Assembly (NCBI RefSeq): GCF_000970305.1 | Contig: NZ_CP009517.1 | Location: forward strand, 1,612,001 to 1,676,000 | Reading direction: 5' to 3' | Length of the DNA stretch: 64,000 nt | Source of the DNA: Methanosarcina barkeri 3 | Lineage (GTDB): Archaea > Halobacteriota > Methanosarcinia > Methanosarcinales > Methanosarcinaceae | Shown: positions 18,778 through 27,488 of the stretch, one piece after another | Numbering within the stretch: position 1 is the first letter of the stretch | Layout: each line of letters opens with the position of its first letter | Made by a program: the position numbers and the translations under genes | Notes under the pieces: generated by a model | Databases searched by the model: none | The model's input: only the letters and a program-made list of their open reading frames with translations | What the model was told of the DNA's origin: nothing

Positions 18778-18852
18778 GCTCCGGTAGTGTAGTCCGGCCA
18801 ATCATTCCGGCCTTTCGAGCCGAAGACTCGGGTTCGAATCCCGGCCGGAGCA
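18778..18852 (+). tRNA. tRNA-Glu (UUC), copy 1
   Basis: Folds as a tRNA: acceptor GCTCCGG/CCGGAGC, discriminator A, T arm TCGGG-TTCGAAT-CCCGG, anticodon loop CTTTCGA giving anticodon TTC (Glu). The outermost anticodon-stem pair is a C-A mismatch. CCA is not encoded (the sequence after the A is TCAT). Identical to the second copy at 19541. Confidence 0.95.
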
Positions 18853-19540: not shown

Positions 19541-19615
19541 GCTCCGGTAGTGTAGTCCGGCCAATCATTCCGGCCTTTCGAGCCGAAGACTCGGGTTCGA
19601 ATCCCGGCCGGAGCA
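19541..19615 (+). tRNA. tRNA-Glu (UUC), copy 2, with encoded CCA
   Basis: Same 75 bases as copy 1. Here the discriminator A is followed directly by CCA, so the 3' end may be templated, unlike copy 1. Confidence 0.95.
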
Positions 19616-22027: not shown

Positions 22028-23529
22028 TCGAATTGAAAGATTTTTCATACACCTACGGAACAGCTGAAAACCCTGTCCTGAAAAAAATTAACCTTGAGGT
22101 CCGACAGGGAGAACTGCTTCTGGTTACCGGGCACAGTGCAGCCGGAAAGACAACACTGGCTCTTGCTATGGCAGGCGTCCTGCACCATGAAATAGAGGGC
22201 AAGACCGAAGGAGAAATCATTTTCAAAGACCGAAACATAAAAAGTTTTAACGGCATGAAGGAACTGAGCCGACATATCGGGATGGTTTTTGATGATGCGG
22301 AATCACAGCTTATCTTCACAAGTGTCGAAGAGGAAATCCATTCCGGGCTTGAAAACCGGAGTTATTCCAAAAAAGAACTGAGACACAGGCTGGAAGAAGT
22401 AATGGAACTCTGCGAAATCAGCCATCTTAGAAACCGGGCCCCACATGCTCTTTCCGGAGGGCAGAAGCAAAAAGTTGCACTTGCAGCAACCCTTGCCCTC
22501 GATACCGAAGTCCTTATCCTTGACGAAGCTACAGCCGAACTGGATACAAAGGCCGTAAGAAGAATCTTTTCAATCTTGAAACGGCTGAAAGAGTCCGGAA
22601 AGACTATCATAATCATAGACCACAACATAGACGATTTCCTCGAAATCGGGGATAGGGTTGTGCTGCTTGAAAAGGGCAAAATAAAAGCTATAAAAAGTCC
22701 GACTGATTTTTCAGCGTCTTCTCTTGCAGCATCTTCTCTCTCTTCAGAACAGGAAATTTCTGAAACTAGCAGACAAAATCTTTATATGCCTCAGAATAAG
22801 GTTAAGGAAAGACAGCCCATTATTTCCGTAAAAAATCTCACACAGCGTTACGGAGAAGTCCTGGCACTCGACAGCATAGACCTGGAGATTTATCTTGGAG
22901 AGCTCGTTGCTGTGCTGGGCGAGAATGGTTCAGGCAAAACAACCCTTGTCAAACACTTCAATGGACTTTTACGCCCTTATTACGGAAGCGTAATTATAAA
23001 AGGCCTCGAAACTTCAAAAACTCCTGTAAACGAGCTTGTCAAACACACCGGCCTGGTCTTTCAGAACCCTGACAATATGCTTTTTGAAGATACCGTCGAA
23101 GCAGAAATTGCTTTCGGATTAAATAATATAAATATAGAAGGGCTTGAAGCTGAAAAAGCAATATCCGATTCCCTTGAACTTGTAAATCTTGAGGAAAAAC
23201 TGAGAGTTTTTCCTCGAAACCTGAGCAGGGGAGAAAGGCAGAGGCTGGCAGTTGCCTGCGTAATTGCCATGAAGCCCGAACTTATCGTGCTCGATGAACC
23301 TACAACAGGTCTGGACGCCGAAGAATCGGACAATATGATGCACCTTATACGAAAGCTTCAGCAGGAAGGGCACACAATAGTCATGGTAACCCATAACATG
23401 CAAATAGTAAAAGACCATGCTGAGAGGGTTATTCGCATGGCTGACGGAAAAATAATCGAAGATACCAGAAAGGAAACTGCAGATAGCGAGCAGGTGAACA
23501 GAGGACATATTGGAGGCATTTGTGCATGA
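22024..23529 (+). CDS. ECF transporter ATPase, two ABC domains fused (EcfA-A')
   Basis: 501 residues with two complete ABC cassettes. Domain 1: Walker A GHSAAGKTT, signature ALSGGQKQK, Walker B LILDEATAELD. Domain 2 (from about 262): Walker A GENGSGKTT, signature LSRGERQR, Walker B LIVLDEPTTGLD, H-loop VTHN. Most bacteria encode EcfA1 and EcfA2 separately; the fused form is common in methanogens. Both sites keep the catalytic Glu. A Ser-rich linker (SSLAASSLSSEQE) joins the halves. The ATG overlaps the S-component stop and the stop overlaps the EcfT start. Confidence 0.93.
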   Translation: MIELKDFSYTYGTAENPVLKKINLEVRQGELLLVTGHSAAGKTTLALAMAGVLHHEIEGKTEGEIIFKDRNIKSFNGMKELSRHIGMVFDDAESQLIFTSVEEEIHSGLENRSYSKKELRHRLEEVMELCEISHLRNRAPHALSGGQKQKVALAATLALDTEVLILDEATAELDTKAVRRIFSILKRLKESGKTIIIIDHNIDDFLEIGDRVVLLEKGKIKAIKSPTDFSASSLAASSLSSEQEISETSRQNLYMPQNKVKERQPIISVKNLTQRYGEVLALDSIDLEIYLGELVAVLGENGSGKTTLVKHFNGLLRPYYGSVIIKGLETSKTPVNELVKHTGLVFQNPDNMLFEDTVEAEIAFGLNNINIEGLEAEKAISDSLELVNLEEKLRVFPRNLSRGERQRLAVACVIAMKPELIVLDEPTTGLDAEESDNMMHLIRKLQQEGHTIVMVTHNMQIVKDHAERVIRMADGKIIEDTRKETADSEQVNRGHIGGICA

Positions 23530-24311
23530 AGGAGATTATGCAGTATATTAATAGTGACAGCTTTTTACACAGCATGAACCCACTCTCCAAAATTGTAGCT
23601 GTTGCAGGAATTATAGTTCTGAGCGTTTTTACAACGAGTTCCATAGTCCTGGCGCTTATGGTACTTGGAATCTTTCTGGTATCCCTCAAAGCCGGACTCC
23701 ATCACGAACTTATCAGACAGCTCAAACTTCTTGTTTTCCTGAGTTTGAGCCTGATCCTGCTAACAGTTTTTACCATGAAAAGTGGAGTAACCCTGGGATT
23801 TCTTATCCCTGCAGGAACTCTTACTGCCAAGGGGATCTTTCCAGTTACTACCGGAGCTCTGGATTTTGGAGTGGTTCTTTCCCTTCGATTCTTTGCAATG
23901 CTCTTCGCCTTTCAGCTTCTTGTGGTCACTACAAGGCCCAGTGACCTCATGAAAGCTCTTCTGGAAATCCACATTCCTGTGGATTATGTGCTTATGTTTG
24001 TAATTGCCCTTCGGTTTATCCCGAGCTTGCAGGTCGAAGGCCAGCGCATTCATGAAGCCCAGCTTGCAAGAGGTTACAATCCGGGAAAAGGGCTTCGTGG
24101 AAAGGTAAGGAGTATAAAGCCGCTTCTTGTGCCCCTGGTAGCAAATTCTCTTGGAAGAACCCAGGTCCTTGGCCTGACCATGGATATGAGGGGATACAGA
24201 GACAGACACAGCGTGGACAAGGACCGGCTTGCCTGGAATAGAGTAGACTTTGCAGCCGTAGGCTGTGTGGCTCTCATGGGAATCGGCATAGTACTTACAG
24301 GACTTATATGA
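23526..24311 (+). CDS. ecfT: ECF transporter transmembrane (T) component
   Basis: 261 residues from the ATG at 23526 (GGAGG 9 nt upstream, overlapping the ATPase stop). About five membrane helices, and the family's coupling-helix Ala-Arg-Gly motif in EAQLARGYNPGKG (about 178-190), with a second MDMRGYRDR motif near 220. EcfT links the ATPase dimer to the S component. The gene set and order (S, A-A', T) form a complete dedicated transporter. Confidence 0.93.
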   Translation: MKEIMQYINSDSFLHSMNPLSKIVAVAGIIVLSVFTTSSIVLALMVLGIFLVSLKAGLHHELIRQLKLLVFLSLSLILLTVFTMKSGVTLGFLIPAGTLTAKGIFPVTTGALDFGVVLSLRFFAMLFAFQLLVVTTRPSDLMKALLEIHIPVDYVLMFVIALRFIPSLQVEGQRIHEAQLARGYNPGKGLRGKVRSIKPLLVPLVANSLGRTQVLGLTMDMRGYRDRHSVDKDRLAWNRVDFAAVGCVALMGIGIVLTGLI

Positions 24312-24333: not shown

Positions 24334-24912
24334 ACTCAAAATTTTCGGCTTTTCTTTATAATCCTTACCTTGCATTTCGGATTTCGCTCCTTTTAACAGA
24401 AATTCTGCCACTTTTTGTGTAAATACCCAGGGAATTGGCTTATTTACTTTATTTTCAAAAAACTGAACTCGCTAGTTGAAATCACTCATTTAATTGCTAG
24501 AATGTTCACCAGTACAGAGATATTAAGGGGATATTAAGAAAAGTTAAAAAGGATTTTTAATTGACTTTTTATGTCAATATTAATTTAATGTGTTTATAAA
24601 TGAAATTATACGTCCATATAATGAGCAACACTTGTTAGTACACACACAAATAAAAGTGACTCATCAAAGGACTTAAATAGAATAGGACAGTTATTGGTTG
24701 TTTGAAGATTTGAAAAGGTAAAATTGGGGGAAAACTCAAAAGCTGAATTTCAACCGGGAGAAAAACTAGATTGTTTGTACGATTTACCTGGATTAAAAAA
24801 TTATGCTAAAAATTATGCTAAAAATTATGCTAAAAATTATGCTAAAAATTAATCAAAAATAGTTAAATTAAACGTAATTAAATGTCCAAGTTAAGCTAAA
24901 AGTTAGTTAATT
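24334..24912. other. AT-rich intergenic region
   Basis: No gene. Four 12-bp copies of ATTATGCTAAAA occur at about 24795-24850. Possible promoter sequence for the hairpin element to the right. Confidence 0.5.
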
Positions 24913-25000
24913 GATTGAGAGCCCTTTTTGATGACCCTTGAGCTCTCAATCGGTGAAACCCCCTTGAAGAATACTCCCCCATATTCTTCCCATAGTTGCA
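24913..25000. ncRNA. Candidate structured RNA, hairpin element copy 1
   Basis: GATTGAGAGC (24913-24922) pairs with GCTCTCAATC (24942-24951), extendable outward with U-G and A-U pairs. Then comes GGTGAAACCCCC and a second hairpin, GAAGAATA/TATTCTTC, whose loop is CTCCCCCA. Related in sequence and structure to copy 2 at 25038. No coding frame. Strand is assigned only by the C-rich loops, so it is left open. Confidence 0.5.
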
Positions 25001-25034
25001 AGAGACCAGTACAAACATTTAATTGATTGTGGTG

Positions 25035-25105
25035 ATTGATTGAGAGTTCCTTTATGATCCTGAACTCTCAATCGATGAAACCCCTACAGAAAAACTCCCC
25101 ATACG
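25035..25105. ncRNA. Candidate structured RNA, hairpin element copy 2
   Basis: GATTGAGAGTTC (25038-25049) pairs with GAACTCTCAATC (25062-25073), extendable by three more pairs, then GATGAAACCCC and a downstream ACTCCCC. The stem top differs from copy 1, but the pairing is kept. Confidence 0.5.
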
Positions 25106-25366
25106 CTATGCACAAAGGTGTACTATTGCGCTTCTCTTACAACTACATCCTTCTAATGCTGAAATCTTATATATAATAAATTACGTTAAATATTCAATTG
25201 CCCATCGTTTTTGTATTGTCATAAACTTTTTAGCACGGGAATAAATTTAAGTACTCTTCAAAAATACAATCAATATTTAAAATTTGCTGACATCTAATTT
25301 TTTAATAGCTTTGAAATTTCAAAGCGTAAGAATTAACGAATTGAAATTCAATTGAGAAAGAAAATC

Positions 25367-25440: not shown

Positions 25441-25700
25441 ATCATGGCAGTTAATAGTTGTTAATAACTATTGATAACTATCAATGGCTGTCAGAATGGC
25501 TGTCAGTAGTTGTTAATAGCTATCAGTAGTTGTTAATAGCTATCAGTAGTTGTTAATAGCTATCAGTAGTTGTTAATAGCTATCAGTAGTTGTTAATAGC
25601 TATCAGTAGTTGTTAATAACTATCAATAGCTATCAATAGTTGTTAACAGCTACCAATAAATATCAATGGATATCAATAATTATCATAACTATCAATAACT
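25441..25700. repeat. 20-bp tandem repeat array
   Basis: Six near-perfect copies of TATCAGTAGTTGTTAATAGC at 25502-25620, grading into degenerate copies on both sides. No spacers, so not a CRISPR. It lies about 150 bp beyond the stop of the acyl-CoA ligase gene. Confidence 0.93.
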
Positions 25701-25703
25701 GTT

Positions 25704-25792
25704 GAGGACTTCGATAAACCTCTGATTTCAACATATTACTTATATACCCTTTATAAGCAACTAGCCAAAAATCTGGGTTTATCGAAGTCCTC
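25704..25792. mobile_element. MITE-like element with 17-bp perfect terminal inverted repeats
   Basis: GAGGACTTCGATAAACC at 25704-25720 is exactly inverted at 25776-25792, with a 55-bp AT-rich core and no coding capacity. It looks like a miniature inverted-repeat transposable element; a long terminator hairpin is the alternative. A partly similar sequence occurs at about 28872-28930. Confidence 0.55.
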
Positions 25793-25847: not shown

Positions 25848-27488
25848 TTAACCTTGCTTATTAAGAAGTTCCACAGACAGTTCTCTTAACCTGTACTTTT
25901 GAATCTTACCGCTTGCTGTCAGCGGGAATTCGCCTACAATGAATACATGCTTTGGAACCTTATAGCGGGCGATCTTGCTTAAGGCATAATCCCTGATATC
26001 GGCTTCTGTAAGGTCTGCACCTTTCTTGAGAATCACAAAGGCACCTACAATTTCCCCGTATTTTTTGTCAGGGATACCGACAACCTGAACGTCCGTAACT
26101 TCAGGTATGGTGAGCAGGAGTTCCTCAATCTCCCTTGGATAGATGTTTTCTCCTCCCCTGATAATCATGTCCTTAATCCTACCTGTGATCCTGTAATAAC
26201 CGTTTTCGTCACAGGTCCCAAGGTCTCCACTGTGAAGCCAGCCATCTTCATCGATAACTTTTTTCGTTTCTTCAGGCATCTTATAGTAACCTTTCATCAC
26301 ATTATACCCGCGACAACATATCTCTCCTACAGTGTTTGGGGGCAGCGGTTCATTGGTATCGGGATCAACAACCCTGACTTCTACGCCCGGGAAATGCTTA
26401 CCAACAGTTTCGACCCTGAGTTCCAGAGGATCATTCACATCAGTTTGGGTCATACCAGGAGATGCTTCCGTAAGTCCGTAAACACTGGTAATCTGATAGC
26501 AATGCATATCATTTACGACTTTTTTCATGGCTTCTACTGGGCAAGTGGAACCTGCCATAATTCCTGTCCTCAGGGAAGATAGGTCGAACATGTCAAACAT
26601 CGGATGCGTATATTCGGCAATAAACATTGTAGGCACACCGTAAAGAGCCGTACATTTCTCTTTATGTACCGCAGCAAGCACCAGTAGAGGATCAAAAATT
26701 TCGAGCATAACAAGCGTTCCTCTATGGGTCAGAATGGCCATAACTCCGAGCACTATCCCGAAACAGTGAAAAAGTGGCACAGGAAAACAGAGTCTGTCCA
26801 CATAGGTGAACTTCTGCCGATCTCCAATAGAAAGCCCGTTATTTAAGATATTTTTATGAGTCAGCATGACTCCTTTAGGAAAACCTGTCGTTCCTGATGT
26901 ATATTGCATATTGACAACATCGTCACAGTCAACACTGGCCATAATCTCGCGGAGCTCGTTATCAGGGTAATGGCTGCCAAGAAGCATGAGCTCGTTTGTA
27001 TTGTACATACCCCGGTGCTTTTCCTGTCCTACGTAAATTATACTCTTAAGATAGGGAAAGTTTTTGCTTTTCAGTCTTCCTCTCTCAGAGGTTTTGAGCT
27101 CAGGGACAAGTTCATTTATTATTTCAATATAATCAACGTCTCTGTAGCTATCAATCATAGCCAGGGCTTTCATATCGGACTGTTTTAATACGTATTCGAC
27201 CTCATGGCTCTTGTAGGCAGTATTCACAGTAACAAGCACTGCCCCGATCTTTGCTGTGGCAAACATGAAGGTAAGCCAGTCAGGGACGTTTTTTGCCCAG
27301 ATTCCTACATGGTCTCCTTTTGTTATGCCTATAGCTAGCAGCCCTTTTGCAAGGTTATTGACCCTTTCGTTGAACTGCCCATAAGTAAAACGAAGGTTGC
27401 GGTCAGGATAAACAATAAACTCGTGGTCAGGGTCTACAGCCACCTGTTTTTCAAAGTAGTTTCCGAGGGACTCTTCTATAAGATGCAT
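25848..27488 (-). CDS. AMP-forming acyl-CoA synthetase
   Basis: 546 residues. ANL-superfamily motifs: the P-loop [18 protein letters not shown] (about 195-212), [10 protein letters not shown] (A4/A5 region), GWLHSGDLG with the conserved Asp (about 420-428), [15 protein letters not shown] hinge (A8), and the catalytic Lys in [11 protein letters not shown] near residue 532. It activates a carboxylic acid to acyl-AMP and then acyl-CoA; length and motifs fit medium-chain or branched acyl-CoA synthetases known in Methanosarcina, but chain length is not evident. It is the last of three minus-strand genes (regulator, thioesterase, ligase), so likely part of an acyl-CoA module. Confidence 0.9.

Follow-up and report, generated by a model that had tools for sequence, protein, structure and literature searches.

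Few archaeal small RNAs have a known mode of action. In Methanosarcina mazei, dRNA-seq has yielded 199 trans-encoded sRNAs, about one-fifth of which are conserved in M. barkeri and M. acetivorans (PMC3432209). The characterised Methanosarcina sRNAs all act by base pairing with RNA (PMC5867862, PMC3510493), those studied so far pairing with mRNAs via C-rich or linker segments, and base-pairing sRNAs commonly carry duplicated modules, as do M. mazei sRNA162/sRNA171 (PMC3510493). Several conserved cold-induced sRNAs that share a motif upstream of the promoter have been described in a related genus, in Methanolobus psychrophilus (PMC5378194). The bacterial RNAs CsrB, CsrC, RsmY and RsmZ are structured RNAs in which short G-rich motifs, with GGA as the motif of the group, are repeated in loops and unpaired stretches, some 18-22 sites in the case of CsrB. 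The classic partner of RNAs of the CsrB/RsmZ type is CsrA.

The predicted small RNA gene described here lies in a 64,000-nucleotide stretch (the window) of the M. barkeri 3 genome, which comprises 4.56 Mb in a single contig. Like M. mazei sRNA162/sRNA171, sRNA154 and sRNA41 of the same genus, it is an intergenic gene for a structured RNA with several stem-loops, and like sRNA162 it has a duplicate and a single-stranded linker. However, while the M. mazei sRNAs pair through anti-ribosome-site segments or a linker, the present RNA is opposite in chemistry, with repeated G-tracts exposed. The sRNA154 gene is flanked by MM3337 and MM3338 and follows an NrpR operator, whereas the present gene is found between an acyl-CoA ligase gene and an ECF-transporter gene; its neighbours thus differ, and the operator sequence GGTA-N6-TACC was not found in the examined region upstream of the TATA box. 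As in the CsrB group, short G-rich motifs recur in the loops and single-stranded parts, but there are about six G-tracts, the few conserved sites read GGGG(G) or GGGA rather than forming GGA-rich hairpin loops, and the motif in the P4 loop is not GGA in all species. A search of Rfam 15 returned no family at the gathering score and nothing at E values up to 5, the best weak match being SNORD25 with 14.7 bits against the 39 required. The element has its own promoter, a structure conserved on the predicted transcribed strand and no conserved reading frame, in common with archaeal intergenic (trans-encoded) sRNAs, and although the gene is absent from Rfam, its transcript may be among the reported M. 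mazei sRNAs.

The core of the element is a repeated hairpin, GATTGAGAG...CTCTCAATC, with a flanking GGGGTTTCA/TGAAACCCC block, of which two copies lie 122-125 bp apart between two convergent neighbours, a CbiQ-like ECF-transporter gene (23520-24311, plus strand) and the acyl-CoA ligase gene (25848-27488, minus strand, with its stop at 25848). Direct repeats connect 24939-24962 with 25061-25084 (92% identical, offset 122) and 24910-24928 with 25035-25053 (offset 125), and an inverted repeat connects 25035-25049 with 25062-25076. These repeats bear out the initial annotation of this DNA, which had placed two hairpin elements at 24913-25105 with the same stems and spacing; it was also right that the tops of the stems differ (AGC/GCT versus AGTTC/GAACT) with pairing kept in both, and the second hairpin that it ascribed to copy 1, with a CTCCCCCA loop on the plus strand, was found at 24966-24989. 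The location holds, but the conserved unit is larger than the extent given there, with a promoter (25168-25183) at one end and oligo-T runs around 24796-24860 at the other. Folding of the 250-nt stretch was better than that of dinucleotide shuffles by 6.0 s.d. on the minus strand and 7.0 s.d. on the plus strand, with none of 200 shuffles as good.

Three independent lines of sequence evidence (G.U versus A.C pairs, promoter and oligo-T) agree that the predicted RNA is transcribed from the minus strand. At the variable pair positions of 25 aligned sequences, the minus-strand reading gives 82 G.U cells, spread over 24 pair columns, against 4 A.C cells in 4 columns, which argues for the minus strand because each G.U would become an A.C mismatch if read on the plus strand. 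The stem of copy 1 illustrates this: its end had been set at AGC/GCT, since a plus-strand reading makes the following pair C.A, whereas on the minus strand that pair is U.G and the helix extends by two further pairs. Upstream on the minus strand, the Methanosarcina loci share a strongly conserved promoter, AATTTATTATATATA, preceded by a conserved A/T-rich box. In the window, the promoter core (TATA) TAATTTATTATATATA occupies 25168-25183 (minus strand); it is present in nearly all loci and precedes every copy in the sister genera, where the promoter accompanies each single-module copy. The A/T-rich box ATTGAATATTTAACG, directly upstream at 25184-25198 (minus strand), is conserved in the Methanosarcina loci and partly so before each copy in two sister genera, and is possibly a BRE or an activator site. 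Of four genomes tested, three contain the exact 16-mer TAATTYATTATATATA, with one copy each in M. barkeri 3 and G009 and three in G036, and every copy belongs to one of these RNAs; the fourth genome, G001, in which the homologous locus is C1:1690069-1690327 (minus), lacks it. Finally, all 26 loci have a minus-strand oligo-T run no more than 110 nt downstream of the last hairpin, as against oligo-A in 2 loci.

The gene body is placed at 24860-25149 on the minus strand, where covariance model R1 matches with 269.9 bits (G000:C1:1636903-1637149, minus), an assignment supported by the G.U/A.C count and the downstream oligo-T. Judged from the TATA spacing, transcription would start near 25145-25149, and the 3' end is predicted between 24900 and 24796, which would give a transcript of about 250-350 nt. 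The T5-T6 run array at 24796-24859 (minus strand; 12-bp unit AAAAATTATGCT on the plus strand) is likely to be the termination zone, in keeping with the oligo-T found downstream in 26 of 26 loci. Within it, 24796-24851 is a 12-bp tandem repeat of 4.7 exact copies that places a T5 run every 12 bp at the 3' end of the RNA; its copy number differs in M. spelaei, and other loci have unrelated T-rich repeats at this place.

All parts of the RNA lie on the minus strand. A long-range helix, P1, is formed by a 5' strand at 25133-25145 and a 3' strand at 24993-25005; its 13 consensus pairs are paired in 99.7% of cells, and one column shows an A-U/G-C double change in 10 sequences. Module A begins with a G-rich segment, GGGGAGUUUUUCUGU (25086-25100), identified from the alignment, which corresponds to hairpin P3 in the mazei group and is degenerate in the group of M. 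barkeri 3. It continues with an unpaired linker, AGGGGUUUCAUC (25074-25085), in which AGGGGUUUCA is at least 90% conserved per column across 25 loci, and ends with hairpin P4 (25038-25073), a 12-bp stem with 99.0% of cells paired and double changes at 4 pairs. Module B repeats this order with hairpin P3 (24966-24989; GGGGGAG loop region, 97.8% of cells paired, double changes at 2 pairs), the unpaired linker AAGGGGGUUUCACC (24952-24965; GGGGGUUUCA at least 90% conserved per column) and a P4 of again 12 bp (24913-24951; 99.3% of cells paired, double changes at 2 pairs). Since the two modules share a single promoter and the long-range helix, they most likely form one RNA in Methanosarcina.

Across the 25 aligned Methanosarcina loci, the consensus of 49 pairs is paired in 99.0% of cells, and double changes affect 9 pairs and 37 cells, compared with 12.7 in shuffles, none of 500 shuffles being as high; slid controls likewise fall short of the observed pairing and double changes. 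The selection on stem structure proposed by the initial annotation is therefore supported. In the lower stem of P4 the sequence itself is fixed and does not covary freely, which would be expected of a recognition site. Conservation of unpaired positions is highest in AGGGG(G)UUUCA of both linkers, GGGA of the P3 loop and AAUCAC after P4, so that three of four conserved unpaired runs (the two linkers and the P3 loop) contain GGG or longer. A coding function was considered and rejected: the ORFs present are all small, their frames are not conserved, and linker-to-linker spacing falls in all three classes modulo 3 while the P4 loops vary in length by one or two bases, which argues against translation and agrees with the earlier view that no protein frame spans the intergenic element.

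The locus is present in 26 of 31 Methanosarcina genomes (blastn, 251-bp query), and the M. barkeri 3 genome is close to M. spelaei, the match in G028 (M. spelaei MC-15) showing 98% identity across the query. The covariance search of other Methanosarcina genomes suggested at the outset was carried out with R1, which represents the whole RNA in 250 positions and 49 pairs; it recovers those 26 genomes together with 5 more from two sister genera in the family. Conservation of the RNA's sequence, structure and promoter thus extends over three genera. A single-module covariance model gave the identical set of genomes, and model R2 found no match in those genomes of further genera of the family that were tested, a point of difference from the Methanolobus sRNAs. 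When 84,980 genomes were scanned with an exact pattern, model-confirmed copies were confined to Methanosarcinaceae. Pattern matches labelled Freyarchaeota, planctomycete and others were unsupported by the covariance model, and the "Bacteroidales" UBA1797 match (L112, DCFT01000224.1) was rejected as mis-binned, its contig also carrying a Methanosarcina-type ligase. Matches fetched in a promoter 15-mer search for relatives in other genera of the family were unrelated, except for a truncated copy in G039, and plasmids gave no match.

Copy number is modular. Methanosarcina has one locus with two modules and one promoter, with the exception of G022, which has two loci. In one sister genus, G036 and G038 carry three separate single-module genes, each with its own promoter; G039 has two copies and a third cut by an assembly gap, and the second sister genus has one copy per genome. 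The initial description of the element as tandem small RNAs is thus literally correct in one sister genus only, and probably does not hold for Methanosarcina with its shared promoter and long-range helix. In contrast to a housekeeping RNA, the present one is dispensable, because the 99% complete genome G024 keeps the ligase gene with no RNA beside it and no confident copy elsewhere. In one Methanosarcina genome that lacks the RNA (G017:C110; L149, L151), the neighbouring acyl-CoA ligase is in pieces with internal stops.

Sequence comparison establishes that the element is structured, under selection and does not code for protein, that it carries a promoter and an oligo-T end, and what its strand, conservation and modular copy number are. 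With regard to function, we tentatively favour a stand-alone minus-strand sRNA gene that would act in trans as a G-rich, multi-site protein decoy, a reading that we would put somewhat short of probable. From its own TATA promoter to its oligo-T end, the gene would give a minus-strand RNA of the above length, from near 25149 to 24860 or beyond, in which a single module occurs twice (P3, whose loop is G-rich, the unpaired linker AGGGG(G)UUUCA, and P4 with its almost fixed stem), the first of them closed by P1. Identical G-rich single-stranded sites, repeated on rigid stems, would then bind and titrate an RNA-binding protein as CsrB/RsmZ RNAs do, but with a different protein, or with a C-rich RNA as the partner of the decoy. 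We favour this reading because the repeated unit joins a fixed stem to fixed G-tracts and because no conserved complementary target was found. Multi-site presentation is achieved by repeated modules within one RNA (Methanosarcina), by two such loci (G022) or by three genes (G036, G038). Against a decoy stand the base-pairing action of the characterised Methanosarcina sRNAs, the frequent occurrence of duplicated modules in base-pairing sRNAs as well, and the absence of CsrA (PF02599) from the M. barkeri 3 genome, the family being found in three control genomes. The more specific proposal of a modular, multi-copy decoy peculiar to Methanosarcinaceae, whose GGGG sites on fixed stems would titrate either an archaeal protein that binds RNA or the cells' own C-rich sRNAs, we regard as doubtful. 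If a decoy role were true, this would be, to our knowledge, the first CsrB-like titration system in archaea, and as the gene is small and occurs in species amenable to genetics (M. acetivorans, M. mazei and M. barkeri), the question of a protein- or RNA-titrating decoy in archaea is directly testable.

Nearly as likely as a decoy, in our analysis, is a trans-acting antisense RNA whose G-rich linker and loops would pair with C-rich mRNA stretches or, as an RNA sponge, would capture other sRNAs such as sRNA41/sRNA154 by their C-rich anti-ribosome-site loops, because the characterised Methanosarcina sRNAs all pair with RNA (PMC5867862, PMC3510493). The linker is indeed unpaired and the most conserved of the unpaired parts, but in a target search covering exact 10-mers of this one segment, its complement TGAAACCCCC was only weakly above the reversed control (42 versus 25 matches in seven genomes), and 7 of the 42 were the genes' own sites. 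No match outside the gene itself recurs across the genus, those upstream of alaS being common to two species only, and an mRNA target reached through this complement was consequently rejected; moreover, a 9-bp stem of fixed sequence is not required for pairing. It is improbable that the RNA binds ribosomes, with the linker AGGGGGU mimicking a Shine-Dalgarno site and occupying the 3' end of 16S rRNA. Ribosome-associated sRNAs are known in Haloferax (PMC6104027), and pairing of the module B linker with GGAUCACCUCCU reaches -11.0 kcal/mol, which beats 98% of shuffles; however, a perfect site would give -17.3, about 20% of shuffles equal or surpass the module A linker and both loops, and a conserved G in place of the A of the true site weakens the pairing in every species, so that module B is the one part with a slight possibility of pairing to the end of 16S rRNA.

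Two readings that dispense with a minus-strand gene fare worse than either decoy or antisense RNA. The initial annotation, which assumed the plus strand, proposed tandem sRNAs whose C-rich loops mask ribosome-binding sites, a mechanism with precedent in sRNA41 and sRNA154 (PMC5867862). The plus strand folds well too and carries T-runs to the right of the promoter region, but the 82:4 asymmetry, the minus-strand promoter that accompanies every copy and the oligo-T that each locus has to the minus side of the structure make this very unlikely, and the C-rich loops are the complement of the G-rich loops, the RNA being the minus strand. As the plus-strand T-runs lie on the other side of the promoter region, they are compatible with a second, plus-strand transcript that may exist besides the minus-strand RNA. 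We give even less credence to the idea that the element has no gene of its own and works in cis on the acyl-CoA ligase mRNA, as its 3' UTR or a processing structure. The ligase gene precedes the RNA on the same strand, both in the window and in those Methanosarcina and G036 loci that were examined, yet about 700 bp separate its stop from the RNA, with the RNA's own promoter in between; in G035 different genes flank the RNA and the ligase is found on a separate contig, and G024 retains the ligase without the RNA.

Further repeated elements were observed in the window. Between the ligase gene and the RNA promoter, 25495-25700 is a tandem array of about 7 copies of the 20-bp unit AATAGCTATCAGTAGTTGTT, decaying to 10-bp units. 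An element of about 90 bp at 25704-25792 has 17-bp perfect inverted ends, GAGGACTTCGATAAACC...GGTTTATCGAAGTCCTC, and matches about 12 other places in the genome at 74-96% identity, which gives it the appearance of a MITE. Two tRNA genes at 18778-18852 and 19541-19615, 763 bp apart, have equal Rfam scores and are possibly the product of a duplication.
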